The notes beneath the pieces were generated by a model. That model did no database searches. It was not told where the DNA came from and worked only from the letters and a program-made list of their open reading frames with translations. Shown here piece by piece: positions 9,501 through 58,514 of a DNA stretch of 64,000 nt (within the stretch, counting starts at the first letter, position 1; the number at the start of each line of letters is the position of its first letter). Origin of the DNA: Pseudonocardia sp. ICBG1293 (GTDB lineage: Bacteria > Actinomycetota > Actinomycetes > Mycobacteriales > Pseudonocardiaceae); NCBI RefSeq assembly GCF_020131355.1, contig NZ_JAHLEL010000006.1, positions 496,001-560,000 of the forward strand. Reading direction: 5' to 3'. A program made the translations under genes and the position numbers.

Positions 9501-10523
9501 TCACGGCAGGTACCGGCGGGCCCCGGAGTACTCGGCGTCGAACCGCACCGGGCTGCCCCGGACCGGGGTGTCCGCGTCGAACGCCTCGATCATCGTGCCC
9601 GCCCCGGCGTACATCGCCACGTGCGTCGCGGGGGAGTTCCAGAACAGCAGGTCACCGGGCCGCAGGTCGGCGGGGTCGTCGACCGGCCGTCCGCCCCGCG
9701 CCTGGTCGGAGGCGTCGCGCCCGACGGTGATCCCGTGCAGGGCGTAGGACAGCCCGGTCAGCCCCGAGCAGTCCGGGCCGAACCCGGAGCGTCCGCCCCA
9801 CAGGTAGGGGCGGTCCAGGAACAGCCGCGCGGTCGCGACCAGACCCTCTCCGGTCGGGGAGGGCGGGGCCCCTCCGCGCAGCTCACCCGCCGCCAGCCAC
9901 GCCTGGTCGCCGCCGGGCAGCGCGACCCGGACCGCGTCGCCCGCCTCGCCGACGACCGGCAGCCGGGTGCCCACGCTGACCTCGCGCAGCCGCTCGGTGC
10001 GTGCCGGGTCGCGGTACAGCCACGCCGTCGCGACGCCGTCGACGGTGCCGGTCGGCGCCCCCGCGGCCAGGGCACCGAACGCCGGGTCGTCGACGAGCTG
10101 GGACGCGGGCACCCAGCCGGGGTAGCCGCGGTCGTCCTTGCCCGAGGGCTGGCCGGGGACGACGACGTGCGCCCAGCCGTCGCGGCGCTCGGTCACGGTC
10201 ACCGGGGCGCCGAGCAGCGCCTGGGTCTGGGTACGCGAGGCGGTGGTCAGCTCACGACGGTCCGCGCTGCTCATCGACCCCATCCACGCCGCCGGGTCGG
10301 CGGGTGCGGCGACGGCGGCCCGGTCCCGGTCCCGGGGGCTGTCCGGGGAGGTCCACACGGTCGCGACCGAGACCGCGACGAACGTCCGCCCCGGTGTGTC
10401 GGCGGCGGGCGCGGCAGCGGCGCCGGGCACGGCAGCGGCGGCGGGCACGGCGGCGGCGGGCACGACGGCGCAGGCGAGCACCGCGGCGAACAGGACGGAC
10501 AGGACACGGGGCACACCGGGCAT
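9501..10523 (-). CDS. Secreted NlpC/P60 peptidoglycan hydrolase
   Basis: This 340-residue protein has a Sec signal peptide with an Ala/Val/Pro-rich extension (about residues 1-42). Two SH3-like segments follow around residues 110-215 ('WAHVVVPGQ', 'YPGWVPASQL'), and then a C-terminal NlpC/P60 domain. The catalytic Cys is in 'FGPDCSGLTGLSYALHGI' and the catalytic His in 'SPATHVAMYAG'. Such enzymes cut D-Glu-to-diaminopimelate bonds in peptidoglycan peptides outside the membrane. It is encoded just upstream of cobG on the same strand but is functionally unrelated. The signal-peptide region is made of near-identical GCGGCGG-type repeats. Confidence 0.87.
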   Translation of the reverse strand: MPGVPRVLSVLFAAVLACAVVPAAAVPAAAAVPGAAAAPAADTPGRTFVAVSVATVWTSPDSPRDRDRAAVAAPADPAAWMGSMSSADRRELTTASRTQTQALLGAPVTVTERRDGWAHVVVPGQPSGKDDRGYPGWVPASQLVDDPAFGALAAGAPTGTVDGVATAWLYRDPARTERLREVSVGTRLPVVGEAGDAVRVALPGGDQAWLAAGELRGGAPPSPTGEGLVATARLFLDRPYLWGGRSGFGPDCSGLTGLSYALHGITVGRDASDQARGGRPVDDPADLRPGDLLFWNSPATHVAMYAGAGTMIEAFDADTPVRGSPVRFDAEYSGARRYLP

Positions 10524-10620
10524 TCTCGGCGGCCGGGGTCACCGGGGCAACCAGCCACACCGCCGGGTCACCGCGACGGGTGGAGTGGCCCCGGCCACAC
10601 CGGTGGGTTCTGATGGTGCG

Positions 10621-11934
10621 GTGCGCCCCCACCGGATGACCGCGGCCGTCGTGACGGTGCTGGCCCTGCTGCTGGCCGGCTGCGGTGCGGGCTCCCGCAC
10701 CCCGGCCGCCACGGCGACGCCGGTGCCGTGCGCGTTCCCGCCGCCCGCGCAGAGCCTCGACGTGCGGGTCCTGGCCTACAACTCCTCGGCCGTCGACCCG
10801 TTCACGAACACGATGGTGCGCAGCTGCTCGCGCGACGGCGTGACGTTGCGGCACGAGCCGATCGACTTCGCCGGCCAGACCCAGAAGACCATCGCGACGC
10901 TGTCCGGGCGCTACGGCACCTACGACATCCTCGAGACCTACGGGCTGGTCGTGCCGCAGTTCGCCTCGACCGGGAAGCTGCGCCCGCTCGACGACCTCGT
11001 CGCCCGGTACCGCGAGGAGTACGGCCTGGACCGGCTCAGCCCCGAGATGCTGGCGGCGCTGTCCTACGACGGGAAGCTCTACGGGCTGCCGACGATGGCC
11101 CAGCCGTTCACGCTGGTGTACCGCCGTGACGTGTTCGACCGGCTCGGCCTGGCCCCGCCGCGCACCTTCGCCGAGCTGCGCGAGGTCGCCGCCCGGGTGC
11201 AGCGCGACGGTGGGATCCGCTACCCGCTGGCGCTGCCGCTGCTGGCGAGCGCGGACATCGCCACCGCCTACGACGCCGCACTCGGCTCGCTCGGTACCGA
11301 CTACGTGGACCGCGACACCGGTCGTCCGAACTTCGACACCCCGGCGGCGACGCGGGCGTTCACCGAGCTGCGCTCGCTGCTCCCGTTCATGGATCCGCAG
11401 GTCACGACGTTCGCCCAGCCGGCGGTGCAGCAGCAGATGTACAACGGGTCGGCGGCGATCGCGATCATGTACAGCGGCCGGATGTTCGACCTGGTCCAGG
11501 AGCGCAACAGCCGTTTCGCCCGGGACTTCGCGTTCTCGGCCCCGCCGTCGGTGGCCGGGGGCGACGTGCTCTACAACTCGCTCTCGGTCGACGGCTGGGC
11601 GATCCCGGCCAACACCGAGGTCGACCCGGACCTGCTGTTCCGGTTCCTGGCCGCGTCGGTCGGGCCGGAGTCGGCGCGCGCGGCCGTGCCCGCGGCGTTC
11701 CCGTCGCGGCTGGGCAGCGTGACGCCGGCGAGCAGCCCCTTCGCGCCCGCGCAGCTCGAGGCGCTGGAGAAGGCGCCGCCGCCGGAGCCGTTCCCGTGGA
11801 CCTCGCGGATCTCGGTCGCGACCCGGCCGGTGGTGGCCGACGTACTGGCCGGGCGGGTTCCGGTCGAGCAGGGACAGCAGCGGATGCAGGACATCGCGAC
11901 GGCGATCGTCGCCGAGTACCGGACCGTGGGCTGA
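10621..11934 (+). CDS. ABC transporter solute-binding lipoprotein (paralogue 1)
   Basis: This 437-residue lipoprotein has a short signal ending in the lipobox 'LLAGC' at about residue 21 from the GTG at 10621. An internal ATG at 10636 would remove the basic n-region. The mature part is a family 1 extracellular solute-binding protein. 'GTYDILETYGLVVPQFAS' and 'YDGKLYGLPTMAQPF' are hallmarks of sugar/polyol-binding members. It is highly similar over its whole length to the protein at 13321-14661. The 60-base gap to the dehydrogenase gene contains a strong promoter, so the downstream genes can also be read separately. Confidence 0.88.
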   Translation: MRPHRMTAAVVTVLALLLAGCGAGSRTPAATATPVPCAFPPPAQSLDVRVLAYNSSAVDPFTNTMVRSCSRDGVTLRHEPIDFAGQTQKTIATLSGRYGTYDILETYGLVVPQFASTGKLRPLDDLVARYREEYGLDRLSPEMLAALSYDGKLYGLPTMAQPFTLVYRRDVFDRLGLAPPRTFAELREVAARVQRDGGIRYPLALPLLASADIATAYDAALGSLGTDYVDRDTGRPNFDTPAATRAFTELRSLLPFMDPQVTTFAQPAVQQQMYNGSAAIAIMYSGRMFDLVQERNSRFARDFAFSAPPSVAGGDVLYNSLSVDGWAIPANTEVDPDLLFRFLAASVGPESARAAVPAAFPSRLGSVTPASSPFAPAQLEALEKAPPPEPFPWTSRISVATRPVVADVLAGRVPVEQGQQRMQDIATAIVAEYRTVG

Positions 11935-11958: not shown

Positions 11959-11999
11959 TTGTCAGGGTCGGTGGCCGACTCTTAATGTATGCGTATGTA
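11959..11999 (+). promoter_or_regulatory. Promoter and LacI-type operator of the first HisD/HpsN-like gene
   Basis: TTGTCA at 11959-11964 and TAATGT at 11983-11988 are separated by 18 bases and match actinobacterial -35/-10 elements. The predicted start of transcription, about 7 bases on, coincides with an ATG at 11995, so the message may be leaderless. A degenerate palindrome, TGTATGC then GTATGTA at 11986-11999, overlaps the -10 box and the start. It is one of four similar sites around the LacI-regulated genes. Confidence 0.6.
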
Positions 12000-13314
12000 C
12001 CTGACTGAAGCCGACCTCCGGCGTATCGGGTCGCCCGTCACCGTGGTGAAGGCGCCGGCCGTCGTCGACAGCGCGGACCTCCGCGACCCGGCCGTGGTGG
12101 CCACCGTCTCGGAGATGCTGCGCACGATCTCCGCGGGCGGGATGGACGCGGTCCTGCGCTACGCCCGCGAGCTCGACGGGTTCACCGGCACCGACCTGCT
12201 CGTCGGTCCCGCCGAGCTCGCCCGGGCCGGTGACGCGCTGCCCGCGGACCTGCGCGCGGCGCTGGACGCGGGGGCCGAGCGGACCCGCCGGTTCGCCGGG
12301 ATGCAGCGGGCGCGGCTGCAGGACTTCGAGGCCGAGGTCCTGCCCGGGGTGGTCTGCGGGCAGCGTCTGGTCCCGGTCGGGAACGTCGGTGCCTACCTGC
12401 CCGCCGGCCGGTTCCCGCTGCTGGCCAGCGCCTTCATGACGGTGGGGGTGGCCGGGGTGGCGGGCGTGCCGAACGTCGTCGCGGCCACCCCGCCCTCGCG
12501 GGACGGGCGCCCGCACCCGGCCGTGCTCTACGCGGCGCACATCAGCGGCGCCGACGCGGTCTACGCCGTCGGTGGGGTGCAGGCGCTCGCCGCCATGGCG
12601 TTCGGGCTGCTCGACGGGACCCCGGCGGACATGATCGTGGGCGCGGGCAACGCCTACGTCGCCGAGGCCAAGCGCCAGCTCTACGGGCAGGTGGGCATCG
12701 ACGTCCTGGCCGGGCCCTCGGAGGTCGCGGTGATCGCCGACGACACCGCGGACGCCGCGACCGTGGCCGCGGACCTGCTGGCCCAGGCCGAGCACGGGCC
12801 GACCTCGCCCGCGTCGCTGGCCACGACCTCCGAGCGGCTGGCCGACCAGGTCCCGCGGGAGATCGAGAAGCAGCTCGCGGGCCTCGCGACCGCCCCGATC
12901 GCCGGGGCCGCCTGGCGCGACCACGGCACGGTCTACCTCGCACCCGACCGCGAGACCGTCGCCCGGGTCATGGACACCCTGGCCCCCGAGCACCTCGAGG
13001 TGATCGCCGAGGACCTGGACTGGTGGCTGGAGCGGCTGCGCAACTACGGCTCGTTGTTCCTCGGTCCGCACTCGACGGTGGTCTACGCCGACAAGGGCAT
13101 GTCCGGCACCAACCACGTGCTGCCGACGACGCGGGGTGCGCGCTACACCGGCGGGCTGTCGGTGGCCGGCTTCCTCAAGCAGCTGACCTACCAGCGCGCG
13201 ACCCGGGAGGCGACCCGCGCCCAGGCCGAGCCGACGGTGACCGTGTCCGACTTCGAGCAGCTCGTCGGGCACCGCGACAGTGCCCGCATCCGGCTCGACG
13301 CTCTCCGGGGCTGA
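11995..13314 (+). CDS. HisD/HpsN-family NAD-dependent dehydrogenase, first copy
   Basis: This 439-residue protein is of the histidinol dehydrogenase superfamily. It keeps the catalytic Glu-His ('APEHLEVI'), the zinc-ligand region 'LLAQAEHGP', and 'ADKGMSGTNHVLPTTRGAR'. It lacks the genomic setting of a his operon. With SDR, aldolase and ABC transporter neighbours it looks like the catabolic branch typified by sulfopropanediol 3-dehydrogenase (HpsN), which oxidises an alcohol twice to a carboxylate. The true substrate is unknown. The start at 11995 is chosen because the promoter predicts a leaderless message; ATG at 11989 adds two residues. A second copy lies at 19191-20510. Confidence 0.82.
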   Translation: MYLTEADLRRIGSPVTVVKAPAVVDSADLRDPAVVATVSEMLRTISAGGMDAVLRYARELDGFTGTDLLVGPAELARAGDALPADLRAALDAGAERTRRFAGMQRARLQDFEAEVLPGVVCGQRLVPVGNVGAYLPAGRFPLLASAFMTVGVAGVAGVPNVVAATPPSRDGRPHPAVLYAAHISGADAVYAVGGVQALAAMAFGLLDGTPADMIVGAGNAYVAEAKRQLYGQVGIDVLAGPSEVAVIADDTADAATVAADLLAQAEHGPTSPASLATTSERLADQVPREIEKQLAGLATAPIAGAAWRDHGTVYLAPDRETVARVMDTLAPEHLEVIAEDLDWWLERLRNYGSLFLGPHSTVVYADKGMSGTNHVLPTTRGARYTGGLSVAGFLKQLTYQRATREATRAQAEPTVTVSDFEQLVGHRDSARIRLDALRG

Positions 13315-13317
13315 TCG

Positions 13318-13331
13318 CGCATGCGTATGTA
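13318..13331. promoter_or_regulatory. LacI-type operator at the second solute-binding protein gene
   Basis: CGCATGC then GTATGTA is centred between 13324 and 13325. Both halves fit the RYATRC half-site seen at three other sites in the island. It overlaps the ATG of the second solute-binding lipoprotein, just after the dehydrogenase stop. No good promoter is visible, so it could act as a transcription roadblock or be a relic of duplication. Confidence 0.45.
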
Positions 13332-14661
13332 CGACGGGCAGGCGGCTGCGGCCCGCGGCGCCCGCCCGCTCGTGGTCGCACTCGGGCTCGCGGTGGTGCT
13401 GCTGCTGGCCGGGTGCGGCGCCGGGTCGCGGACACCCGCCGCCACCGCCACGCTCGTCCCGTGCGACTTCCCACCGCCACCGTCGTCGGTGGACGTCAAC
13501 GTCCTGGCCTACAACTCCTCGGCCATCGACCCGTTCACCAACTCGATGGTGCGCAGCTGCTCGCGCGACGGGGTCACGCTGCACCACGAGCCGATCGACT
13601 ACGCGGGCCAGGCCCAGAAGACGATCGCGACGCTGGCCGGCCGCTTCGGCACCTACGACATCCTCGAGACCTACGGCTTCGTCGTCCCGCAGCAGGCCGC
13701 GACCGGCAAGCTCCACCCGCTCGACGACCTGGTGGCCCGCTACGGCGCGCAGCTCGACCTGGACCGGCTCAACCCGGCGATGCGCGAGGCGATGTCCTAC
13801 GACGGCACCCTCTACGGCATCCCGATGCAGGCCCAGATGTTCGTCATGGCCTACCGCCGCGACGTGTTCGACCGGCTCGGGCTGACGCCGCCGCGCACCT
13901 TCGCCGAGCTGCGGCAGGTGTCCGAGCGCATCCAGCGCGACGGCGGCATCCGCTACCCGCTGGCGCTGCCGCTGCTGGCGAGCTCGGACCTCGCCACCGC
14001 CTACGACGCCGCACTGGGCTCGCTGGGCACCGACTACGTGGACCGCGACACCGGTCGCCCGAACTTCGACACCCCGCAGGCGGCGGAGGCGTTCGAGCAG
14101 CTGCGCTCGCTCGTGCCCTACATGGACCCGCAGGTGACGACGTTCGCCCAGCCCGCGGTGCAGCAGCAGATGTACAACGGCTCGGCCGCGATCGCGATCA
14201 TGTTCAGCGGCCGGATGAAGGACCTCACCGAGGTGGAGAACAGCCGGTTCGCGGCCGACTTCGCGTTCGCCCCGCCGCCGTCGGTGGCCGGCGGCGACGT
14301 CCTCTACAACACGCTGTCGGTCGACGGATGGGCGATCCCGGAGAACACCGACCTGGACAAGGACCTGCTGTTCCACCTCGTCGCGGCCTCGGTCGGGCCG
14401 GAGTCGTCGCGGGCCGCGGTGCCCGGCGCGTTCCCGGCCCGGGAGGGCATGGTCACCCCGGACAGCAGCCCGTTCGCGCGGGCCCAGCTGGACTCGATCG
14501 GCAGGGCCTCCCCGCCGGAGCCCTACCCGTGGACGTCGCGGATCAGCAACGAGACCCGCCCGGTCGTCGCCGACGTGCTGGCCGGCCGGACGTCGATCCC
14601 CGACGGCCAGCGGCAGATGCAGGAGATCGCCACCGCGATCGTCGCCGAGTACCGGCGCTGA
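13321..14661 (+). CDS. ABC transporter solute-binding lipoprotein (paralogue 2)
   Basis: This 446-residue protein carries a lipobox 'LLLAGCGAG' near residue 31 and is a close paralogue of the protein at 10621-11934, with long identical blocks such as 'TGRPNFDTP' and 'DPQVTTFAQPAVQQQMYNG'. It differs mainly around the likely ligand site ('MQAQMFVMAYRRDVF' against 'MAQPFTLVYRRDVF'), suggesting two related ligands. It is followed 39 bases later by the two permease genes and so is probably their main partner. The start could be ATG 13321 or 13327; both overlap the operator. Confidence 0.88.
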   Translation: MRMYDGQAAAARGARPLVVALGLAVVLLLAGCGAGSRTPAATATLVPCDFPPPPSSVDVNVLAYNSSAIDPFTNSMVRSCSRDGVTLHHEPIDYAGQAQKTIATLAGRFGTYDILETYGFVVPQQAATGKLHPLDDLVARYGAQLDLDRLNPAMREAMSYDGTLYGIPMQAQMFVMAYRRDVFDRLGLTPPRTFAELRQVSERIQRDGGIRYPLALPLLASSDLATAYDAALGSLGTDYVDRDTGRPNFDTPQAAEAFEQLRSLVPYMDPQVTTFAQPAVQQQMYNGSAAIAIMFSGRMKDLTEVENSRFAADFAFAPPPSVAGGDVLYNTLSVDGWAIPENTDLDKDLLFHLVAASVGPESSRAAVPGAFPAREGMVTPDSSPFARAQLDSIGRASPPEPYPWTSRISNETRPVVADVLAGRTSIPDGQRQMQEIATAIVAEYRR

Positions 14662-14700
14662 CCCCTACCCACCACCCCACGAGAGCGAGGTGAGGCGATC

Positions 14701-15567
14701 ATGCGCAGGCGCGAGTTCCTGGGGCTGGTCTCCCCGAGCCTGCTGGTGATGCTCGGCCTGCTGCTGTTCCCGCTCTACAAGACCGTGGAGTGGAGCCTGC
14801 AGCGGGTCAACTACGGCGAACCCGGCACCTTCCTCGGCCTGGACAACTACACCCAGGCCCTGTCCGACCCCCGGCTCGGGCGGGCGGTGCTGTTCACGGT
14901 CGGCCTGACCGCCGCCGTCGTCGCCGTCCTGCTGGTCGGGGGATACCTGCTCGCCGTGCTGGTCAACGGGCTCGGCCGGTCCCGGCCCTGGGTACTGGGG
15001 GTGCTGCTGGTGTCCTACGTCGTGCCGAACGTCGTCGGCGCCACGATGTTCTCCTGGCTCTTCGACTCCAACTTCGGCGGCGTCGTCAACTACCTGATCA
15101 CCGAGCTCACCGGCGCCGAGATCCTCTGGTTCACCGAGCCGTGGGCGAACCGGCTCATGATCGGCCTGAACACCGTCTGGTTCATGCTGCCGTTCGCGAT
15201 GCTGGTGATCCTCGCCGGGCTGCAGGGCGTCCCGGGGGAGATCGTCGAGGCCGCCCGGATCGACGGCGCCACCGGCTGGCGGGTGCACTGGCACGTCATC
15301 GTGCCGAGCATCCGGGGCGTCCTCACCTTCGTCTCGATCGTCTCGATCATGGACGTGCTGCGGACGTTCGACCAGCTCGTCCCGCTCTCGCCGCAGGCAC
15401 CGCAGATCGGCAACGAGTCGATCATGCTCTACATCTACAACATCGCCTTCCAGGACGGCGGCCAGCAGCTGGGGCTCGGCAGCGCGATCAACGTGCTGCT
15501 CATCGTCCTGATCGTGCTGCTGCTCTCCCCGTTCATCCGGGACATGGCCAAGGAGGCTCGCCAGTGA
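14701..15567 (+). CDS. ABC transporter permease, MalF-like
   Basis: This 288-residue protein has six predicted membrane helices and the EAA loop that contacts the ATPase ('VEAARIDGATGWRVHWHVIVP'-type segment near residues 180-200). It is a type I (MalF-like) permease of the CUT1 sugar/polyol importer class. GAGCGAGGTGAGG upstream supplies a ribosome binding site for the ATG at 14701. Its stop overlaps the GTG of the next permease, so the two membrane subunits are translationally coupled. Confidence 0.9.
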   Translation: MRRREFLGLVSPSLLVMLGLLLFPLYKTVEWSLQRVNYGEPGTFLGLDNYTQALSDPRLGRAVLFTVGLTAAVVAVLLVGGYLLAVLVNGLGRSRPWVLGVLLVSYVVPNVVGATMFSWLFDSNFGGVVNYLITELTGAEILWFTEPWANRLMIGLNTVWFMLPFAMLVILAGLQGVPGEIVEAARIDGATGWRVHWHVIVPSIRGVLTFVSIVSIMDVLRTFDQLVPLSPQAPQIGNESIMLYIYNIAFQDGGQQLGLGSAINVLLIVLIVLLLSPFIRDMAKEARQ

Positions 15568-16460
15568 GCACCGTGCAGACCGCCCCGCCGGCGACCACTC
15601 CCGGCCCGCCCGACGACGCCGGCGCCGCCCCGGCCCGCCGTCGTCCGCGCGGGCGGACCGTCCTGGTCGGCGGCCTGCTGCTGGTGATCTGCTGGGTGAT
15701 GCTGAGCCCGGTGCTGTGGACGGCGATGTCGGTCACCAAGCCGACCGACGTCGCCTTCCTCGACCCGCCGGTGTTCACCTGGGAACCCACCTTCACCGCG
15801 TTCGTCGACCTGTGGCAGACCACCGAGTTCTACCGGTACCTGCTCAACACCCTGGTCGTCGCGCTGATCAGCACGGTGATCGCGCTGCTCATCGGCATCC
15901 CCGCCGCGTACGCGCTGTCGCGCTACCCGGGGTGGGTCTCGGTGGCGCTGCTCATCGCCGCACTGATCTTCCGCGCGCTGCCCCGGTTCGCGGTCGTGCT
16001 GCCGATGTACGAGCTGTCGCGCTCGCTGGGGATCTACGACACCACGTTCGCCGTCGCCGCCGCCCTGGTGGCGATCAACCAGCCGTTCTCCATCTGGCTG
16101 CTGCGCAACTTCTTCGCCGAGATCCCCAAGGAGCTCGACGAGGCCGCGATGCTCGACGGCTGCAGCCGGTTCCAGACCCTGTGGCGGGTCATGGTGCCGC
16201 TGATGGGGCCGGGGATCCTGACCGCGGGGATCTTCATGTTCCTGTTCGCCTTCCAGGAGTACCTGACGGCGAACGTGCTCACCGACGTCGTCGCCCGCAC
16301 GGTCCCGGTCTTCATCGCCACCCAGCTCGGGCAGACCCTGCCGATGCTCCAACAGGCCGGTGCCGCCGCGATCCTGCTGACGCTGCCGGTGATCGGGTTC
16401 GCCTTCATCGCCCAGCGCTACCTCGTGGCGGGCCTGGGCGCCGGGTCGGTCAAGGGCTGA
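15564..16460 (+). CDS. ABC transporter permease, MalG-like
   Basis: This 298-residue protein has a disordered Pro/Ala-rich N-terminus (residues 1-30) followed by six membrane helices. The EAA loop is 'ELDEAAMLDGCSRFQTLWRV'. The family ends at 'FIAQRYLVAGLGAGSVKG', typical of MalG-type carbohydrate importers. The GTG start overlaps the upstream permease stop (GTGA). No ATPase gene is in this operon. The MsmK/UgpC-type ATPase at 24897-25952 is the likely energiser. Confidence 0.9.
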   Translation: MSTVQTAPPATTPGPPDDAGAAPARRRPRGRTVLVGGLLLVICWVMLSPVLWTAMSVTKPTDVAFLDPPVFTWEPTFTAFVDLWQTTEFYRYLLNTLVVALISTVIALLIGIPAAYALSRYPGWVSVALLIAALIFRALPRFAVVLPMYELSRSLGIYDTTFAVAAALVAINQPFSIWLLRNFFAEIPKELDEAAMLDGCSRFQTLWRVMVPLMGPGILTAGIFMFLFAFQEYLTANVLTDVVARTVPVFIATQLGQTLPMLQQAGAAAILLTLPVIGFAFIAQRYLVAGLGAGSVKG

Positions 16461-16463
16461 GCG

Positions 16464-17171
16464 GTGCCCGCGCCGCCGCCCCCGCCGCTGGTCCTGCTGC
16501 CGGGCATGAACTGCTCGGCCCGGCTGTGGGGCCCGGTGGGGGCCGGGGCGCTGCACCCGGTCCTGGACCGGCCGACCCTGTCGGAACAGGTCGAGGCCCT
16601 GCTCGCGGCGCTGCCGGAGCGGTTCGCCCTCGCCGGGCTCAGCCTGGGCGGCATCGTCGCGATGGCGCTGGCCCGGCGGGCCCCGGACCGGGTGGCCGGG
16701 CTGTGCCTGATGGCGACCAACGCCCGCCCGCCGACCCCGGAGCAGCGCGCCGGCTGGGACGCGGCGCTGGCCCGTCTCCACGACGGCGCCCCGTCCCGTG
16801 CCCTGCAGCCCCTGGACCTGCTGCTGCACGACCGGTCGCTCGACGACACGGCCCTGCGGATGGCCGACGAGGTGGGGGAGCGCCGGCTCACCGCCCAGCT
16901 GCAGCTGCAGGGCTCCCGGGTGGACGAGCGCCCCGGGCTCGCCGCGGTGACGGTGCCGACCCTGGTGCTGGCCGGCGAGCACGACCGGCTGTGCCCGGTC
17001 GCCCGGCACACCGAGATCGCCGAGCTGGTGCCCGGCGCCCGGCTGCACGTGCTGCCGGGCGCCGGTCACCTGCTCCCGGTCGAGGCGCCGGACACCGTGG
17101 CGACGCTGGTGGCCGGGTGGACGGCCACGGTGCACGCCCGGGAGCGGGCCCGGGCGGCGGACCGGCACTGA
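16464..17171 (+). CDS. Alpha/beta hydrolase
   Basis: This 235-residue protein has the nucleophile elbow 'GLSLGGIVAMALA' (Ser near residue 59), the acid-bearing 'AGEHDRLCPVARH' segment, and a final His in 'LPGAGHLLPVEAP'. It is a plausible esterase or lactonase acting on the imported compound. The GTG at 16464 starts 3 bases after the permease stop, so it is the last gene of the transporter operon. The substrate is unknown. Confidence 0.85.
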   Translation: MPAPPPPPLVLLPGMNCSARLWGPVGAGALHPVLDRPTLSEQVEALLAALPERFALAGLSLGGIVAMALARRAPDRVAGLCLMATNARPPTPEQRAGWDAALARLHDGAPSRALQPLDLLLHDRSLDDTALRMADEVGERRLTAQLQLQGSRVDERPGLAAVTVPTLVLAGEHDRLCPVARHTEIAELVPGARLHVLPGAGHLLPVEAPDTVATLVAGWTATVHARERARAADRH

Positions 17172-17511
17172 CCGGGCCGGCCGCGCCCGGTCGCGGGCCC
17201 CGGCCGGGTCGGGCACCGGTGTCCGGCCGCACGATCGGCACGAGCGGTCCGCCCGCCGATCACGGTTCGGAGCCCGGTCCGCGCCGTGACCCCGAGCTCG
17301 CGTGCTGGTCCCGAGCGGGCCTGCTGATCCCGATCTCGCGTGCTGATCCGGAGCTCGCGCGGTGATCGGCTGTTCGCGCGCGTCGGGACGCGCGCGAGGT
17401 CCGGTTCTGCGCGCGCACCGCGGATCACCGCGCGACCGTCGGCACGCGGGGGAGCCGCGGTGCCCGGAGGCGGGGACGTGCCGAGCCCCGGCCCCGGGGC
17501 GTCGCGCCGCC

Positions 17512-17635
17512 GGGCCGGCCGCACCCGTCCGCGGGCCCGGCGTCGTTCGGGCCGGCCGCACCTGTCCGCGGGTCCGGCGTCGTTCGGGCCGGCCGCACCC
17601 GTCCGTGGGCCCGGCCCCGATCGGGCCGGCCGCAC
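17512..17635. repeat. 37-bp tandem repeat array
   Basis: The word GGGCCGGCCGCA recurs at 17512, 17549, 17586 and 17623, a constant spacing of 37 bases. The sequence between is conserved for the first three units (CCCGTCCGCGGGCCCGGC-like). There are no unique spacers, so it is a minisatellite rather than a CRISPR array. Confidence 0.8.
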
Positions 17636-17641
17636 GAACGG

Positions 17642-17680
17642 CACGAGCGAGGGTTCCGGTGCCCGCAACCCTCGCTCGTG
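17642..17680 (-). terminator. Hairpin downstream of the aldolase operon
   Basis: Perfect 14-base arms (CACGAGCGAGGGTT and its complement at 17667-17680) enclose an 11-base loop, 39 bases beyond the aldolase stop on the minus strand. It fits a terminator without a T-run, as is usual in actinobacteria. Its terminal GCACGAGCG is shared with the inverted repeat inside cobN, so it may also be a dispersed palindromic element. Confidence 0.6.
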
Positions 17681-17718
17681 GTGGGCATGGCCGGAGCCGC
17701 CGCTTCCGGCGACGGCGC

Positions 17719-18436
17719 TCACCCCGTCGCCGCGGCCAGCTCCCGGAACGACGCCATCATCACCGCGGCCAGGTTGTAGACCACCAGCTGCGCCCCACCC
17801 GCGAACGACGCCGCGGCCGCCTCCGCCGACCCCGCCAGGTCGGCCCGGACGGCGTCCCGGACCGCCGGGTCGGTGCGCACCGCCGCCAGCAGCTCCGCGA
17901 CGGACGGGTCGGCGTCGGTACGGGACGCGCCCAGGTCCGCGACGCCGACCAGCCAGCCGTCGACCCCGTCCACCCCGACGATCTCCCCGGCCCGTTCGAG
18001 GGCGCCCGGCGACTCCAGCATCGCGATCACCAGCACGTCCTCGCCCGCCGCCCGGTGCTCGTCGGCGGTGACGCTGCCGAACCGGCCGGACCGCGGGTAC
18101 GTCGCGAACCCGCGCGTGCCGTGCGGCGGGTGGCGCAGCGCCCGCACCAGCGAGGTGGCCTGTGCGGCGTCCTCCACGTGCGGCGCGACGATCCCGCGGG
18201 CGCGCGCGCTGGGCCAGGTGGTGCTCGCCCTCCCCGGGCCGGACGAGCACCGGGAGCCCGTGCGCGTCGGCGTGCGCGATGTGGGTCCGGAGCATCCCCA
18301 CGTCGGCCGGGCCGTGCTCGCAGTCGATCAGTACGAAGTCCAGCCCGGCGACGCCGAGCATCTCCACGACCTCCTCGCAGGGCATCCGCACCAGTGCCCC
18401 GGCGAGCCGCTCCCCGGCGGCGACCCGGGCCCTCAC
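17719..18436 (-). pseudogene. HpcH/HpaI-family aldolase with frame break
   Basis: The N-terminal frame starts at GTG 18436, overlapping the SDR stop (GTGA). It reads 'VLIDCEHGPADVGMLRTHI' and 'LPVLVRPGEGEHHLAQR', clear class II HpcH/HpaI aldolase signatures. Near 18200-18210 the similarity jumps to another frame, 'GIVAPHVEDAAQATSLVRAL', and continues to the stop at 17719 with 'AMLESPGALERAGEIVGVDG'. About four residues ('LDAG'-like) normally found at the junction are missing, consistent with an 11-base deletion. The intact enzyme would cleave a 2-keto-3-deoxy-type acid to pyruvate or a related product. It is either a recent pseudogene or a sequence error in the GCGCGCGC run. Confidence 0.75.
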
Positions 18437-19194
18437 GCGACCATCCCCGCGGACAGGTCGACGTCGGCGCCGGACAGCCCGGGCATGGCGAGCATCGCGA
18501 CGCCGGCCGCGCCCACCTCGTCGGCGGTGATCATCCGGCCGAGCGCGGCCCGTCCGACGAACGCGGCCCGCGCGGCGGCGACGTCGGTGCCGGTGCGCTC
18601 CGCCTCGAGGGCGAAGTTCCGGTCCATCCGGTCACCCTCGACCGGGCCGGGGGACAGGGCGTTCACCCGCACCCCGGCCGGGCCGGCCTCGAACGCGAGC
18701 GTGGAGGTCAGGCCGAGCACCGCGGTCTTCGAGGCGCAGTAGGGCGTGCGCCGCGCCAGCGGCCGCTTCCCCGACACCGAGGCCACGTTGACCACGTCGC
18801 CGTCGCCGCGCTCCAGCATCGGCGGCAGGAACGCCCGGCACACCGGGTAGGTGCCGCGCACGTTGACCGCGAACACCTCGTCCCACTCCTGCGGGGTGAC
18901 CTCGACCAGCGGGGCGACCGGGCCGGCGATCCCGGCGTTGTTGACCACGACCGAGACCTCCTCGTCGGCGAGCCGGGCCGCCAGGTCCGCGACGGAGTCC
19001 GGGTCGGCGACGTCGCACACCTCGGCCCGGGCGGCGGGCCCGATCCGGGACGCGGTCGCGTCCAGGGTGCCGGCGTGGCGTCCGGCGAGCACCACCCGGG
19101 CGCCGGCGCGGGCCAGGTGCGACGCGATCGCCGCCCCCAGGCCGCTGCCGCCGCCGGTCACCAGCGCGGTGCGCCCCGCGACCGGCGCGCTCAC
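18433..19194 (-). CDS. SDR-family oxidoreductase of the catabolic operon
   Basis: This 253-residue short-chain dehydrogenase has 'TGGGSGLGAAIASHLARAG' for NAD(P), 'NNAG', catalytic Ser in 'NVASVSGKRP', and 'YCASKTAVLG' as the Tyr/Lys pair. It is the middle gene of a three-gene unit: its GTG at 19194 overlaps the stop of the upstream dehydrogenase, and its stop overlaps the aldolase GTG. It probably oxidises or reduces a hydroxyl of the same substrate handled by the HisD/HpsN-like enzymes. The exact reaction is not known. Confidence 0.88.
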   Translation of the reverse strand: MSAPVAGRTALVTGGGSGLGAAIASHLARAGARVVLAGRHAGTLDATASRIGPAARAEVCDVADPDSVADLAARLADEEVSVVVNNAGIAGPVAPLVEVTPQEWDEVFAVNVRGTYPVCRAFLPPMLERGDGDVVNVASVSGKRPLARRTPYCASKTAVLGLTSTLAFEAGPAGVRVNALSPGPVEGDRMDRNFALEAERTGTDVAAARAAFVGRAALGRMITADEVGAAGVAMLAMPGLSGADVDLSAGMVA

Positions 19195-20510
19195 GACCCG
19201 GCCACCGGTGTCGCCGTGACCTCGTCCAGCCAGCCGACGCGGTCCCCGCCGTGCCGCCAGGCCCGCAGGTCCCCGGAGCGGGCGTGGCCCTCGAACAGCT
19301 CCACCCGCGACGCCCGCCCGCACACCCGGCCCAGTTCCGCGCTCGCCGCCGGGTCGTGGACCTCCTGGTAGGTGCAGGTCTTGAGGTACTTCCCGACCCA
19401 CAGCCCGCCGGTGTACCGCGCGGCGCCCAGGGTCGGCAGGACGTGGTTGGTACCGATGACCTTGTCGCCGTAGGACACGCAGGTGTTCTCCCCGAGGAAC
19501 AGCGCGCCGTAGTTGCGCATGCGGTCCAGGGCCTCGCGCGGACGTGCGGTGAACACCTGCACGTGCTCGGCGGCGAGGTCGTCGGCGACGCGCCACATCT
19601 CGTCGGCGTCGTCACAGACCACGATCCGGCCGTGGTCGCGCCAGGCGGGGCCGGCCAGGTCGTTCGTGGGCAGCCCCGGCAGCAGCCGGTCGACCAGCTC
19701 CAGCACCGACCGGCCCAGCGCGGCGGAGGTGGTGACGAGCACCGCGGGGGAGTCCGGCCCGTGCTCGGCCTGGGAGAGCAGGTCGACGGCGACGGTGAGC
19801 GGGTCGGCCGTCGCGTCGGCGACCACCAGGATCTCGGTGGGGCCGGCGAACAGGTCGATGCCGACCTCGCCGAAGAGCTGGCGCTTGGCCTCGGCCACGT
19901 AGGCGTTGCCCGGGCCGGCGAGCATGTCCACCGGGGTGACCGACGCGGTGCCCAGCGCCATCGCCGCGACCGCCTGCACCCCGCCCAGCACGTGGATCTC
20001 GTCGGCGCCCGCCAGGTGCATCGCCGCGACCGTCGCGGCCGGGACCTCACCGCGGATCGGTGGCGTGCACGCCACCACGTGCCCCACCCCGGCCGCCTTC
20101 GCCGTCACGATCGTCATGTGCGCCGAGGCGGTCAGCGGGTACCGCCCGCCCGGCACGTACGCGCCCGCCGAGCCGACCGGGACGTGCCGGTGCCCGAGGA
20201 CCACCCCCGGCAGGGTCTCGACCTCGACGTCGCGCAGGGACTCCCGCTGCACCCGCGCGAAGTTCCGGACCTGCTCCTGCACGAAGCGGATGTCGTCGAC
20301 GACCTGCTGCGGCAGCGAGGCGACCAGCTCCTCGACCCGCTCGGGTGCCAGACGCTCCGGGGCGCGCCCGTCGAACCGATCCGCGTACTCCCGCACCGCC
20401 GCACCGCCGCGTCGCCGCACGTCGTCCACGATCGCCCGGACCCGCTCGGCGACGTCCGCGTCGCTGCGGCGCGGGGCCGCCCCCGTCGCACTCTTCAGTT
20501 CCTGCGCCAT
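19191..20510 (-). CDS. HisD/HpsN-family NAD-dependent dehydrogenase, second copy
   Basis: This 439-residue histidinol dehydrogenase-like protein keeps the zinc and catalytic segments 'LLSQAEHGPDSP', 'LAAEHVQVF', 'GTNHVLPTLGAARYTGG' and the C-terminal 'FEGHARSGDL'. That last form is close to catabolic HpsN-type enzymes rather than to HisD. AGAGAGGG 5 bases upstream marks the ATG at 20510; an ATG at 20531 lies in the operator and is rejected. It differs clearly from the copy at 11995, so this is not a recent duplication. It heads a coupled operon with an SDR and an aldolase, and a LacI gene is divergent. Confidence 0.85.
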   Translation of the reverse strand: MAQELKSATGAAPRRSDADVAERVRAIVDDVRRRGGAAVREYADRFDGRAPERLAPERVEELVASLPQQVVDDIRFVQEQVRNFARVQRESLRDVEVETLPGVVLGHRHVPVGSAGAYVPGGRYPLTASAHMTIVTAKAAGVGHVVACTPPIRGEVPAATVAAMHLAGADEIHVLGGVQAVAAMALGTASVTPVDMLAGPGNAYVAEAKRQLFGEVGIDLFAGPTEILVVADATADPLTVAVDLLSQAEHGPDSPAVLVTTSAALGRSVLELVDRLLPGLPTNDLAGPAWRDHGRIVVCDDADEMWRVADDLAAEHVQVFTARPREALDRMRNYGALFLGENTCVSYGDKVIGTNHVLPTLGAARYTGGLWVGKYLKTCTYQEVHDPAASAELGRVCGRASRVELFEGHARSGDLRAWRHGGDRVGWLDEVTATPVAGS

Positions 20511-20526
20511 ACCGCCCTCTCTTGGT

Positions 20527-20540
20527 AGCATACGTATGTG
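20527..20540. promoter_or_regulatory. LacI-type operator between the dehydrogenase operon and the lacI-family gene
   Basis: AGCATAC then GTATGTG forms a near palindrome with a central CG, inside a wider GTAGC...GCTAC symmetry (20525-20545). It sits 17 bases upstream of the dehydrogenase start codon and 107 bases upstream of the regulator, where it could control both. TTGACA on the minus strand at 20576-20581 is a possible -35, but no well-spaced -10 was found. Confidence 0.6.
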
Positions 20541-20646
20541 CTACGGGTCAGCAGTGAACGGCGGGGACGCGCCGCTGTCAAGGGCGCTCCCAAGGGCGCT
20601 CCCGGGGGCGCACTAGGCTCGGCGAGCGGTCGGGGGAAGGGCGGAC

Positions 20647-21642
20647 ATGGTCACCAGTCGCGACGTGGCGAAGCTCGCCGGTGTCTCGCAGCCGACGGTG
20701 TCGCGCGCCCTGACCGACCACCCCCGGGTGTCGGAGGCGACCAAGCGCAGGGTCCGCGAGGCCGCGCTGGCGCTGGGGTACTCGACCAACGCGATCGGCC
20801 GGGCCCTGTCGGTGGGTCGGTCCAACCGGATCGGGCTGGTCGTCGCCGACCTGGAGAACCAGTTCTACGCGAACATGATCGGCCCGCTGCACCACGAGCT
20901 GGAGGGGCTCGGGCACGAGCTGGTGCTGATCACCGAGTCCGCGGGCAGCGCCCCGCTGCCCGAGCGGGTCGCGGCGCACGGGCTGGCCGGGGTGGTGCTG
21001 TCCACGACGACGGTCGACTCGATCCAGCCCGCCCGGCTGCGCGACCGCGGCGTGCCCTTCGTCTACCTGAACCGGACCGCCCCCAGCGTGGCCGCCGACG
21101 CGGTGACCGTCGACCCCGAGCAGGGCGTGCGTGCGGTGGTGGGCGAGGCGGTGCGGCTGGGGCACACCCGGATCGGGGCGATCTTCGGCCCGCGCAACAC
21201 CAGCACCGGTGAGCTGCGCGAACAGGTCGTCCGCACGGTGCTCGACGAGCACGGGCTCGCGCTCGCCCAGCGCGACGTCCTGCACGGCCCCTTCGACTTC
21301 GCGACCGGTCGCGAGGGTTTCCGCACGCTGCACGAGCGGGCCGGCGGACCGACGCTGCTGCTGTGCGGCAACGACGTCGTGGCGCTCGGGGTGCTCGACG
21401 CGGCGGCCGAGGCGGGTGTCCCGGTACCCGGGCACACCTCGGTGGTCGGTTTCGACGACCTGCCGACCTCGCGCTGGGCGCTGGTCCGGCTCAGCACCGT
21501 CGCCTACGACCTCGACGAGGTCGCGCGGGAGTCCGCCCGCCTGGTCGTCGCCCGGCTGACCGACCCCGATGCCGAGCCGCGGCACGTCGTGTACCCGACC
21601 CACTACGTCGCCCGCGCCACCGTCGCGGCGCCGCGGGCGTAG
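20647..21642 (+). CDS. LacI-family transcriptional regulator
   Basis: This 331-residue repressor has an N-terminal helix-turn-helix ('SRDVAKLAGVSQPTVSRAL', residues 3-21) and hinge helix ('GRALSVGRSNRIGLVV'). The periplasmic-binding-like effector domain follows, including 'LLLCGNDVVALGVLDAA' and 'VVGFDDLP'. The ATG follows GGGAAGGGCGG. It lies between the leftward dehydrogenase-SDR-aldolase unit and the rightward SnoaL-cupin-hydrolase-ATPase unit. Four degenerate palindromes with central CG or GC lie at gene starts of the island and are the best candidates for its binding sites. The effector is unknown. Confidence 0.9.
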   Translation: MVTSRDVAKLAGVSQPTVSRALTDHPRVSEATKRRVREAALALGYSTNAIGRALSVGRSNRIGLVVADLENQFYANMIGPLHHELEGLGHELVLITESAGSAPLPERVAAHGLAGVVLSTTTVDSIQPARLRDRGVPFVYLNRTAPSVAADAVTVDPEQGVRAVVGEAVRLGHTRIGAIFGPRNTSTGELREQVVRTVLDEHGLALAQRDVLHGPFDFATGREGFRTLHERAGGPTLLLCGNDVVALGVLDAAAEAGVPVPGHTSVVGFDDLPTSRWALVRLSTVAYDLDEVARESARLVVARLTDPDAEPRHVVYPTHYVARATVAAPRA

Positions 21643-21675
21643 TCGCAGCCGTCGCCGGAAATCCCCGTGCGGCTC

Positions 21676-21705
21676 TTGCTGCCCGGTTGTGCATGCGCAT
21701 ACAGT
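21676..21705 (+). promoter_or_regulatory. Promoter with LacI-type operator upstream of the SnoaL-like gene
   Basis: TTGCTG at 21676-21681 and TACAGT at 21700-21705 have an 18-base spacer and form a credible promoter. The palindrome TGCATGC then GCATACA (21690-21703, 6 of 7 positions symmetric) overlaps the -10 box. This repeats the layout at 11959-11999. Confidence 0.6.
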
Positions 21706-21738: not shown

Positions 21739-22734
21739 ATGGCGCTCGACCCGGTCGCGTATGAGCCCTACCACGACCCGGACGACTTCATCCGCGAGGT
21801 GACCGACCGGATCTGGGTCCAGCGGGACGTCTCCTACATCGTCGACAACTACGAGCCGGACTCGATCGTGCACGGCGGGCTCGGCACGGTCGTCGGTCGC
21901 GACGGGGTGATCGAGGGCAGCCTGATGCGCATCGCCGGCACCCCGCAGCACGTCGGCCAGGCGGAGGACGTGGTGTGGGAGGCCCGCGGCGACGACGCGT
22001 TCCTCAGCTCGCACCTGGTCTTCTCGGCCGACGAGATCCTGGTCGACGGTGTCGTGAAGCGGATCCGCAAGCGCACCATCGCCAACTGCCTGTACCGGCG
22101 CGGCCGCATGGTCGAGGAGTGGGTGGTCCGCGACGAGCTCGCGAGCTGCCTGCAGCAGGGCATCGACCCCGCCGCGGCGGCCCGGTCGCAGCGCTTCCGG
22201 GGCTACCAGGGCTCGATGACCGAGCAGCCCCCGAAGGACGTCCTCGCCGTCGGCGACAGCGGCCCGCGGCCGGACGACTTCCGGCCCGAGTGCGAGCGGG
22301 TGCTGGAGTTCATCGAGGAGGTCTGGAACTCCCGGCGCTACCAGAAGGTCACCGACTACATGCACCGGGACCTGTTCCTGCACACCGTCGGCGACCAGAC
22401 CGTCGTGCGCCCGGACGGCTACCAGCGCGACCTGCTGGCCCTCGTCGCCCCGTTCCCGGACGCCCGGTTCGAGGTCCGTGACGTCCAGACCAACCACGCC
22501 GAGCGCTACGCGGGGCTGCGGATCGCGGTGACCTGGGTGATGCGCGGGACCTACCGCGGCACGCCCGCGTTCGGCCCGCTCACCGGCGGTGAGGTGGAGC
22601 TGCTGGGCGTCTCGCAGTTCCTGGTCCAGGACGGCCGCATCGTGAAGGAGGTCCGGGTCTTCGACGAGATCGCGCTGCGTGCGCAGATCGACGCCGGCCG
22701 GACCGAGACGTTCGACGACACCAACATCTACTGA
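21739..22734 (+). CDS. Tandem SnoaL-like (NTF2-fold) domain protein
   Basis: This 331-residue protein contains two SnoaL-like polyketide-cyclase/NTF2-type domains. The first (about 20-150) includes 'WVQRDVSYIVDNYEPDSIVHGG', and the second (about 190-315) includes 'IEEVWNSRRYQKVTDYMH'. Both end with the family's conserved acidic or basic strand ('GRMVEEWVVRDE', 'GRIVKEVRVFDEIAL'). Single-domain relatives act as cyclases, isomerases or dehydratases; the reaction here is unknown. GAGGAAGG lies 7 bases upstream. It heads an operon with a bicupin, a C-N hydrolase and an ABC ATPase behind a LacI-type operator. Confidence 0.75.
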   Translation: MALDPVAYEPYHDPDDFIREVTDRIWVQRDVSYIVDNYEPDSIVHGGLGTVVGRDGVIEGSLMRIAGTPQHVGQAEDVVWEARGDDAFLSSHLVFSADEILVDGVVKRIRKRTIANCLYRRGRMVEEWVVRDELASCLQQGIDPAAAARSQRFRGYQGSMTEQPPKDVLAVGDSGPRPDDFRPECERVLEFIEEVWNSRRYQKVTDYMHRDLFLHTVGDQTVVRPDGYQRDLLALVAPFPDARFEVRDVQTNHAERYAGLRIAVTWVMRGTYRGTPAFGPLTGGEVELLGVSQFLVQDGRIVKEVRVFDEIALRAQIDAGRTETFDDTNIY

Positions 22735-22747: not shown

Positions 22748-23914
22748 ATGCACGACACGGTGGTCAGCGCGGGCGAGCTCGCCCGCCGCACCGTCCGGCA
22801 CGCGGACTGGGTCCCGTGCAAGGCCGCGTTCATCGACTGCCGCACCCCCGGCTCGGACCGCAAGGACAACTACTCCTTCATCGGCCCCGGGGTCACGCAG
22901 AACGCGTCCCAGCACATCAACCTGCGCGAGCCGCACGGCTTCAACCTGGGTGCGGCGGGCATGCCGCACGGCACCACGAACAGCCTGCACCTGCACTTCA
23001 CCGCCGAGGTCTTCATCAACCTCGACGGCGACTACGAGCTGCGCTGGGGACCCGACGGCACCCAGGGCACCTACCGCAGCGTCGACGGCGACATCGTCTC
23101 GGTCCCACCGTGGATCTTCCGCGGGTTCACCAACGTCGGTGGGGACGACGGCATCCTGCTCACCGTCCTGGGCCGTGACGACACCGGCGGCATCATCTGG
23201 GGCCCCACGGTCCTCGCCGAGGCGGCGGGCCACGGCCTGCACCTCACCGCGGACAACCGGCTCATCGACACCGTCGCCGGGGACGCGCTGCCCGAGGACG
23301 TCGCGCTGATCCGGCCGATGGAGCAGGCCGAGATCGACCGGCTCGACGTCTACACCCCCGAACAGTTCCGCGGCCGTGTCGTGCACGCCGCCGACCGGCC
23401 GTGGGTCGCCGAGCCCTACCTGTGCTCGCGGCTGCCCGGCGGCGGCGCCGAGCTCGCCCCGGTCATCGGCTGGGGCACCGTCGAGAGCCGGGCCGCGGTG
23501 CCGCGGCTGCTCGACCCGCACGGCTTCGCGCTCGCGTGGCTGCGGGCCCTGCCCGGGGAGGGCGTGCTCACCCACCGCCACGACGCGACCCAGGTGCTCA
23601 CCGTGAAGGCCGGGCACTGGGCGGTCACGCTCAACACCGGTGCCGACGCGCGCACCGTCGAGCTGGGCCCGCGGGACACGCTGTCGGTGCCGCCCGGCGC
23701 CTGGCGGTCGGTGACCGCGCTCGACGCCGAGGGCGGCCGGACCGCCACCCCCGGCACCGGAGAGCTGCTGGTCGTCACCGGTGGCGACGGCCGGACCCGG
23801 CCCGAGTGGGCGCGCGAGGTCGTGACCGGTGCCCGGGAGCGCGGGCGGGTCCTCGACGCCGACGGCTACCTCGCCCCGGCCGCGGTGCTGGTGTTCGCGG
23901 CCGAGGACGACTGA
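22748..23914 (+). CDS. Bicupin protein
   Basis: This 388-residue protein has two cupin barrels. The first has a complete metal motif H-x-H-x3-E ('HLHFTAEVFINLDGDY', near residues 80-95). The second ('LTHRHDATQVLTVKAG', near 280-295) has His-x-His but Gln in place of the usual Glu, so metal may bind only the first or both weakly. Bicupins include oxidative decarboxylases and ring-cleavage dioxygenases, but a specific assignment is not supported. It starts 13 bases after the SnoaL-like gene. Confidence 0.75.
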   Translation: MHDTVVSAGELARRTVRHADWVPCKAAFIDCRTPGSDRKDNYSFIGPGVTQNASQHINLREPHGFNLGAAGMPHGTTNSLHLHFTAEVFINLDGDYELRWGPDGTQGTYRSVDGDIVSVPPWIFRGFTNVGGDDGILLTVLGRDDTGGIIWGPTVLAEAAGHGLHLTADNRLIDTVAGDALPEDVALIRPMEQAEIDRLDVYTPEQFRGRVVHAADRPWVAEPYLCSRLPGGGAELAPVIGWGTVESRAAVPRLLDPHGFALAWLRALPGEGVLTHRHDATQVLTVKAGHWAVTLNTGADARTVELGPRDTLSVPPGAWRSVTALDAEGGRTATPGTGELLVVTGGDGRTRPEWAREVVTGARERGRVLDADGYLAPAAVLVFAAEDD

Positions 23915-23924
23915 GGCCGGGCGG

Positions 23925-24896
23925 ATGCCGGCGACGGGGCCCACCGGGCCGGTGACGGCGGGCTCCGGCGGGCCGGTGCAGGCGGGCCCCGGCGGGGCAG
24001 TGCCGACGGGACCCGCCGGGGCTGTGTCGACCGGCCCCGGCGGGGTGGTGCCGGGGCCTGCCGGGGCGGTGACGGTGGCGGCCTGCCGGATCCCGGCGCG
24101 GATCGACGCCCCGGACCCGGCGATCGCCGAGCGCGCCGTGCGCGAGGCGGTCGCCGGCGGCGCCCGGCTCGTCGTCCTGCCCGAACTGACCGTCTGCGGG
24201 TACGCCTTCGCCGACGCCGCCGAGGCGCGGGCCGCCGCCGAACCGGACGACGGACCCACCGTCGCCCGGTTCGCGACCCTGTCGGCGGAGCTGGGCTGCG
24301 TCGTCGTCGCCGGGTTCGCCGAGCTCGGCGCCGACGGCCGGGTGTACAACAGCGCCGTCGTCGTCGAGGACGGGGTGCGGCGCGCGGTCTACCGCAAGGT
24401 CCACCTGTGGGACCGCGAGCACACGCTGTTCACCCCCGGCGACGCCGCACCCCCGGTGGTCGCGACCGCGGCCGGCCGGATCGCCCCGATGGTCTGCTAC
24501 GACCTGGAGTTCCCCGAGTGGGTGCGCCGCGCCGCGCAGGACGGCGCCGAGATCGTCGCCGCGCCGGTGAACTGGCCGTGGCGCCCGACCCCCGACGGTC
24601 AGGACCCGCTGGAGGTGGCGAAGGTCCGCGCCGTCGCCGGGGCGTACCGGGTGCACGTGGTCGCCGCGGACCGCTGCGGCACCGAGCGCGGGGTCACCTG
24701 GTTCGGGGCGCCGGTGATCGCCGACGCCGACGGGAACCTGCTCGCCGGGGCCGCCGGGGGAGCCCGGCGTGCTGCTGGCCGCGCTCGACCCGGCCGCCGC
24801 CCGCGACAAGCACCTCACCCCGCACAACCACGTCCTGCGCGACCGCAGGCCGCAGCTGTACCGCGAGCCCGACCCCCCACCGGAAGGACCACCACC

Positions 24897-24909
<13 letters not shown>
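23925..24909 (+). pseudogene. Nitrilase-superfamily C-N hydrolase with +1 frameshift
   Basis: The catalytic triad is intact: Glu in 'LPELTVCGYAF', Lys in 'YRKVHLWDREHTLF', Cys in 'MVCYDLEFPEW'. After 'DADGNLLAGAAG' the frame shifts at a run of five G (24756-24760). With four G it would read on as 'GEPGVLLAALDPAAARDKHL' and stop at 24909, overlapping the ABC ATPase start by 13 bases. As sequenced, the frame instead runs uninterrupted into the ATPase gene. The superfamily hydrolyses amides or nitriles. The N-terminus carries six Gly-Pro-rich octapeptide repeats before the domain begins at about 24069. It may be a sequence error, a pseudogene, or a strain-specific phase variant. Confidence 0.7.
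23937..24077 (+). repeat. Six 24-bp repeats at the 5' end of the C-N hydrolase gene
   Basis: Units of 24 bases (the fifth is 21) encode octapeptides of the form G-P-x-G-x-V-x-x: GPTGPVTA, GSGGPVQA, GPGGAVPT, GPAGAVST, GPGGVVP, GPAGAVTV. They precede the first strand of the hydrolase domain and are absent from normal family members. Confidence 0.75.
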
Positions 24910-25952
<1,043 letters not shown>

Positions 25953-58482: not shown

Positions 58483-58502
58483 CGCATGCGTATATGTGCA
58501 TG
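58483..58502. promoter_or_regulatory. Operator-like site upstream of the CDF metal exporter
   Basis: CATGC and GCATG flank GTATATGT (58485-58502), 12 bases upstream of the start codon and in an AT-rich island. ArsR-type metal sensors bind such short symmetric AT-rich sites. Its left half also fits the LacI half-site of the island, probably by chance. Confidence 0.4.
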
Positions 58503-58514
58503 TATGGTGCGGGC

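Follow-up and report, generated by a model that had tools for sequence, protein, structure and literature searches.

A LacI-family protein encoded at positions 20647-21642 (+ strand) of a 64,000-nucleotide stretch of the Pseudonocardia sp. ICBG1293 genome very probably binds four conserved palindromes and represses three promoters, which likely serve one catabolic pathway together with its ATP-binding cassette (ABC) importer. The stretch, referred to here as the window, covers positions 496001-560000 of contig C6 in the strain's own genome (G000; 7,959,327 bases) and has a GC content of 75%. The genes concerned lie between 11.9 and 26 kb of the window, in three groups around the LacI-family gene. 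The first group contains a histidinol-dehydrogenase-like gene (HDH1), a solute-binding protein gene (SBP2), two permeases and an alpha/beta hydrolase; the second, on the minus strand, contains a further dehydrogenase of the same kind (HDH2), a short-chain dehydrogenase (SDR) and an HpcH/HpaI aldolase; the third contains a SnoaL protein, a bicupin, a carbon-nitrogen hydrolase and an ABC ATPase. A palindrome stands at the start of each group, and one more is found between HDH1 and SBP2. From the spacing of the genes we infer that each group is one operon. The third appears to continue into the carbon-nitrogen hydrolase and also, in this genome and 3 of 15 relatives, into the transporter ATPase. 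At the level of comparative genomics the four sites, their placement at gene starts, their conservation with the regulator across genera and the regulon itself are real, and its assignment as a LacI-family local regulon is well supported.

The four predicted operators occupy positions 11986-11999 (operator 1, TGTATGCGTATGTA), 13318-13331 (operator 2, CGCATGCGTATGTA), 20527-20540 (operator 3, AGCATACGTATGTG) and 21690-21703 (operator 4, TGCATGCGCATACA). These are the coordinates given in an earlier note on this DNA, which also placed the LacI-family gene correctly at 20647; the note had allowed a centre of CG or GC, while the centre is CG in all four palindromes and their consensus reads TGYATRC/GYATRCA. 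Each of the three gene groups begins at one of the sites, and site 2 lies inside the first operon ahead of SBP2. The 12-base core RYATRCGYATRY has five exact matches in the window, namely the four sites and one at 58484, and 10 in the whole genome, four of which fall within 9.7 kb. A position weight matrix (PWM) built from congener sites with the window excluded ranks the four sites at the top of the window (scores of 24.6, 23.5, 21.2 and 20.7), followed by 58483 at 17.7 and 7163 at 13.5; the training sites for this matrix were gathered with a strict pattern that the window itself had suggested.

The remaining matches are of several kinds. The match at 58484 is a palindrome, CGCATGCGTATATG, with a weaker palindrome overlapping it (58483-58504), just before a putative cation-efflux-like gene. 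No counterpart is present in the fetched loci of four close relatives (best scores ≤8.7), and in two of them, G030 and G032, the DNA alignment around 58484 starts at the edge of the site; for want of a counterpart it was set aside as a fifth regulon site and is probably a chance match, or perhaps the site of another regulator. Elsewhere in the genome, a core match on contig C44 lies inside an open reading frame (ORF), and three of the ten are the same sequence on contigs C51, C71 and C72 (identical over the stretch compared), at the start of an ORF. The recurrence of this sequence on three contigs (L049, L050 and L051), two of which are short, reflects assembly redundancy, and the contamination estimate of the genome is 5.68. 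A core match on another contig, TGCATGCGCATATG at C8:199460 (L047:5000; score 18.6), has an SBP_bac_5-type gene nearby and falls within a major facilitator superfamily ORF or immediately ahead of it; it is a possible further member of the regulon.

Conservation with the regulator was assessed in 61 congeneric genomes besides our own, 15 of which encode a LacI orthologue of at least 73% identity (73-97%). Sites are present at HDH1, at SnoaL and at HDH2 (or at the SDR or aldolase gene where HDH2 is absent from that place) in all 15, and operator 1 has the form TGTATGCGTATGCA in every one of them. The exact 14-mer TGCATACGCATACA occurs twice per genome in these 15, with one copy at HDH1 and the other at SnoaL, and is absent from the 46 other congeners (Fisher p 1.4e-14, related genomes being treated as independent); the two counterparts in the window each differ from it by one base. 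The mean core count is 5.4 in the 15 genomes with LacI at 73% or more, 2.1 of these lying outside the cluster, against 1.9 in the remaining 46; a reversed control pattern averages 2.8 over all congeners. Site 2 is the most variable and least conserved of the four. Its apparent confinement to a few close relatives was an artefact of the strict pattern: with the PWM, less perfect versions are recovered at this position, scoring at least 16 in 12 of the 15. The rarity and clustering of the motif in the genome, together with its retention at the same promoters in relatives that carry the same orthologue, support the proposal of the earlier note that one LacI regulon ties otherwise scattered genes into a single regulated pathway.

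The association extends beyond the genus. A DNA search of 394 genomes drawn from the class returned five matches, four of which lie between a LacI orthologue (53-57% identity) and SnoaL; the fifth comes from a genome of 1.9 Mb, and its 3-kb locus contains no pathway gene. Also compared were 24 named loci from Pseudonocardia, Umezawaea, Nocardioides, a Propionibacteriaceae metagenome-assembled genome, Microbacterium and other Microbacteriaceae, Agilicoccus, Brachybacterium and Desertihabitans, all with LacI proteins of at least 52% identity; 7 of these come from genomes already covered by the genus search. Of the 24, 22 have the SnoaL-side site. In most Microbacterium loci HDH1 lies elsewhere and has no site, and the site stands before SBP2. 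SnoaL was found in 3 of the 150 genomes of one further sample, and these three were examined further. Over 37 loci, 112 of the 116 sites scoring at least 16 lie between -20 and 220 bp upstream of the start of a pathway gene or of lacI, while 200 column-permuted matrices gave a mean of 1.0 site and a maximum of 33. Divided by origin, such gene-start sites account for 57 of 57 in the Pseudonocardia loci, which overlap the PWM training set, and for 55 of 59 in the rest, the only set with no training sites in it. A LacI protein of 47-49% identity is found in G023 and in three genomes taken to be Streptomyces (one of them G537), together with rearranged operons whose new starts carry sites; in L116, one of the three Streptomyces-type genomes, no site scoring 12 or more lies just before SnoaL. 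More distant LacI proteins (32-36% identity) are found near HDH2-like genes with TGTATACGTATACA-type palindromes (L079, L080, L083, L085 and L086), which likely constitute a sister regulon.

The regulator carries both parts expected of the family, a helix-turn-helix domain (PF00356, 53.9 bits; cut-off 27) and a periplasmic-binding-protein-like domain (PF13377, 99.6 bits; cut-off 26.5), and no NCBIfam LacI model reaches its own cut-off on it. The segment SQPTVSRAL of the recognition helix is invariant in all 16 Pseudonocardia orthologues and recurs in the other listed cluster LacI proteins of at least 47% identity, save L067, L073 and L117, which have SQATVSRAL. Even, CG-centred palindromes conserved with an orthologous regulator are the mark by which local regulons are recognized in the cited parts of a family-wide study (PMC4052901), where such motifs are ascribed to most LacI-family regulators and autoregulation to 72% of them.

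Promoter boxes, read by eye and by conservation, can be proposed ahead of each gene group. For HDH1 the predicted promoter spans 11959-11988 (+), with TTGTCA (11959-11964) and TAATGT (11983-11988) separated by 18 bp; for HDH2 it spans 20553-20581 on the minus strand, with TTGACA (20581-20576), 17 bp and TTCACT (20558-20553), and is similar in relatives; for SnoaL it spans 21676-21705 (+), with TTGCTG (21676-21681), 18 bp and TACAGT (21700-21705). Among 21 aligned HDH1 promoters, gathered by a pattern entered by hand and admitting the L061 variant, TA(A/G)TGT stands about 18 bp beyond a box that in most of them resembles TTG(T/C)CA. The -10 box ends inside operator 1, and its TA-nnn-T is kept in all 21, even where the operator bases at that point differ (L061 and L071). 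The ATG at 11995, at positions 10-12 of the site, is present in all 21, and the earlier one at 11989, where the ORF opens, in 19 of 21; the single Microbacterium HDH1 in the alignment, which has no operator, takes the second ATG as its first Met. On these grounds the HDH1 start codon is most likely 11995. The TA-nnn-T ends six bases before it, and we regarded a start as leaderless where a -10 box lies about 6-7 bases ahead of the start codon with no leader, so that the HDH1 transcript is predicted to be leaderless, with the operator on its start point. For SnoaL, 20 promoters passed a start-codon filter that dropped the Microbacterium rows and some others; TA-nnn-T is kept in all 20, and the TACAGT box has four bases in common with operator 4. 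The sharing of bases between operator and -10 box may account for the asymmetric and nearly frozen form of sites 1 and 4. Operator 3, placed after the TTGACA-17-TTCACT of HDH2, is nearly symmetric.

Repression of the three promoters would then take slightly different forms. At the first operon the operator would extend from the last bases of the -10 box across the start point and over the start codon of the predicted leaderless HDH1 mRNA (about -9 to +5); the SnoaL operator would overlap most of the -10 box and some of the spacer; and at the HDH2 operon it would lie just downstream of the predicted start point. Bound repressor may thereby block RNA polymerase at each of the three promoters, and the pathway substrate or an intermediate would release it. 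Operator 2, between HDH1 and SBP2, may serve as an accessory or roadblock site.

Several results weigh against this account of a LacI repressor acting on four operators. Within the genus, SnoaL occurs in G023 and in the 16 genomes whose LacI reaches 73% or more, and in no others, so that the co-occurrence ties the site to the whole cluster and not to the regulator alone. By the strict pattern, the SnoaL-side site is missing from L067 and L073 (LacI 53-54%), and the four exceptions among the 116 high-scoring sites (L044, L116, L117 and L118) face genes left without assignment. Site 2 is degenerate in 3 of the 15 relatives, where it scores 10-11. A pattern allowing up to two mismatches is not enriched in the window (18 found against a shuffle mean of 21), and for this reason only exact or near-exact matches carry signal. 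A scan with an E. coli-type consensus recovered none of the proposed promoters, where 0.3 were expected. Finally, operator 3, in the interval separating HDH2 from lacI, stops 106 bp short of the lacI start, and no evident lacI promoter overlaps it; given that distance, autoregulation is not evident.

The most probable alternative is that the palindromes are real operators of a regulon but are bound by another protein or by a LacI paralogue, the neighbouring LacI controlling something else. The genome holds many LacI-like candidates (43 on first look), the distant LacI proteins beside HDH2-like genes accompany similar TGTATACGTATACA-type sites, and site presence follows the pathway as well as the regulator. 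Set against this, lacI stays in the cluster, between or beside two sites, in the 24 named loci as in all 15 congeners; the palindromes are even and centred on CG, as described for most LacI-family regulators in the parts of PMC4052901 cited above; and where the 47-49% identical LacI takes the regulator's place, its helix segment is the same or one residue off and the new operon starts carry sites of this type. We therefore consider a different binding protein improbable. In a further alternative LacI binds these sites as an activator or dual regulator, the sign of regulation being predicted here from site placement. All three promoter-linked operators overlap or lie downstream of a predicted -10 box or start point, an arrangement that fits occlusion, while activators usually bind upstream, and a role other than simple repression is accordingly very unlikely. 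That the four sites are chance matches, or by-products of -10-like TATG sequence and start codons, is strongly disfavoured and close to negligible, for although TATG-rich stretches do look like -10 boxes, the two-mismatch pattern lacks enrichment and the 58484 match shows that chance matches occur, the sites are palindromic, conserved across genera, in exact co-occurrence and recovered class-wide, the -10 boxes can be recognised in their own right and share no more than the site ends, and 58484, unlike the cluster sites, has no counterpart in the fetched loci of four close relatives.

The favoured reading, repression by the neighbouring LacI protein, embraces the following genes. The first operon begins with HDH1, a histidinol-dehydrogenase/HpsN-like protein (11995-13314, +; PF00815), followed by SBP2, a sugar-type ABC solute-binding lipoprotein (13321-14661, +; PF01547), whose start may be 13321 or 13327, by ABC permease A (14701-15567, +; PF00528), by an ORF conserved in the cluster (15564-16460, +), which from its position is a putative ABC permease B, and by the alpha/beta hydrolase (16464-17171, +; PF00561). 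Directly upstream of HDH1 lies a further solute-binding gene, SBP1 (10243-11934, +), 78% identical to SBP2 over 414 residues and missing from this position in most relatives; it is likely a recent duplicate, with no operator of its own. On the minus strand, HDH2, the second HpsN-like dehydrogenase (19191-20510; PF00815 and an HpsN alignment), precedes the SDR (18433-19194; PF00106) and the HpcH/HpaI aldolase (17719-18436). PF03328 is found in both pieces of the aldolase, the N-terminal one under the curated cut-off. The reading frame is broken near 18212 in the assembly, with a shift of frame from one half to the other, and is continuous in the five listed relatives; the break may be an assembly error or decay. 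The third group comprises the SnoaL or tandem NTF2-like protein (21739-22734, +; PF07366 and a structure model), the bicupin (22748-23914, +; PF07883 in two stretches and a structure model), the carbon-nitrogen hydrolase (23925 to approximately 24790, +; PF00795) and the ABC transporter ATPase (24897-25952, +; PF00005 and PF08402), the last present in the fetched loci of 3 of 15 relatives. Here the hydrolase and ATPase form a single 675-residue ORF (23925-25952, +), whereas in G005, G030 and G031 they are in different frames; the joined ORF may be a fusion or a frame error. Further downstream, a cobalamin riboswitch (RF00174, 40.1 bits; 30737-30810, +) is found ahead of a large ORF at 30901-34614.

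With its sugar-type importer, two HpsN-like dehydrogenases, SDR, aldolase, hydrolases and bicupin, the gene set points to a polyhydroxylated compound that would be taken up, oxidized and split by retro-aldol cleavage. SBP2 resembles solved sugar-binding proteins. The bicupin model (mean predicted local distance difference test score, pLDDT, 80.7) is like oxalate decarboxylase and quercetin dioxygenase (full-length template modelling score, TM, 0.4-0.5), and the SnoaL model (mean pLDDT 83.6) is like tandem-domain polyether epoxide hydrolases (full-length TM about 0.3; root mean square deviation 16-18), with a single domain that resembles polyketide cyclases; SnoaL has 654 homologues at E ≤0.001, of which 120 were listed. 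Solved structures and predicted folds of the cluster proteins place them in broad classes only. Literature searches, judged by title and abstract, found no description of the cluster or of the motif. The regulon is ordinary in kind and its conservation unusually good; less ordinary are the fusion of an operator with a predicted leaderless start codon, of which this is a clean natural case, and a broadly shared pathway for which these searches gave no description. About a dozen genes annotated by family alone would be brought into one regulated pathway common to several actinobacterial families, the motif is specific enough for further members to be found by DNA search alone, and the promoters named here could serve as reporters for substrate screening.

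Comparison of the dehydrogenases with characterized enzymes sets them apart from both relatives. HDH1 and HDH2 are 46% identical, and the best solved match of each is HpsN, the 2,3-dihydroxypropane-1-sulfonate (DHPS) 3-dehydrogenase of Cupriavidus pinatubonensis (8v35; E 6.5e-118 and 1.5e-110, respectively). The Asp-Lys pair that the cited portion of the HpsN work (PMC11382572) places in the active-site loop is kept in both. Of the HpsN motif G-R-Y-A/S-H, given there with the sulfonate-binding His126, HDH1 has GRFPL and HDH2 GRYPL, with Leu replacing His, and Leu occupies this column in 8 of 8 aligned sequences. A DHPS or sulfonate pathway was rejected as an identification because of this replacement in both proteins. 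Histidinol dehydrogenase, HisD, belongs to the same fold family, and the TIGR00069 cut-off is exceeded; its scores in the solved set are lower than those of HpsN, however, the cluster is not a histidine operon, and in place of the HisD motif G-S-A-P-L the P-L end is kept behind G-R-F/Y (G-K-Y in one), so that HDH1 and HDH2 were not assigned as HisD. We lean towards a combined picture in which operator 1 would coincide with the -10 box end, the transcription start and the leaderless start codon all together, thereby also setting how the enzyme begins (M-H/Q, and M-Y for the window), and would govern an undescribed catabolic pathway of several actinobacterial families built on a third HisD/HpsN branch.

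Among named LacI regulators, UriR of Corynebacterium gives the best-scoring model (NF051853, 162.8 bits), but this is far under the curated cut-off of 550 and the target genes here are others, and an equivalog assignment was rejected. A close parallel is with the local catabolic regulons of LacI-family proteins compiled by Ravcheev et al. (2014). Relative to the regulons in the cited parts of that compilation (PMC4052901), the present one differs in that operators 1 and 2 overlap or touch start codons and in that its targets are not a recognised sugar pathway; it is like them in its even CG palindrome, in the location of the regulator within the cluster and in the predicted control of an importer together with catabolic enzymes.

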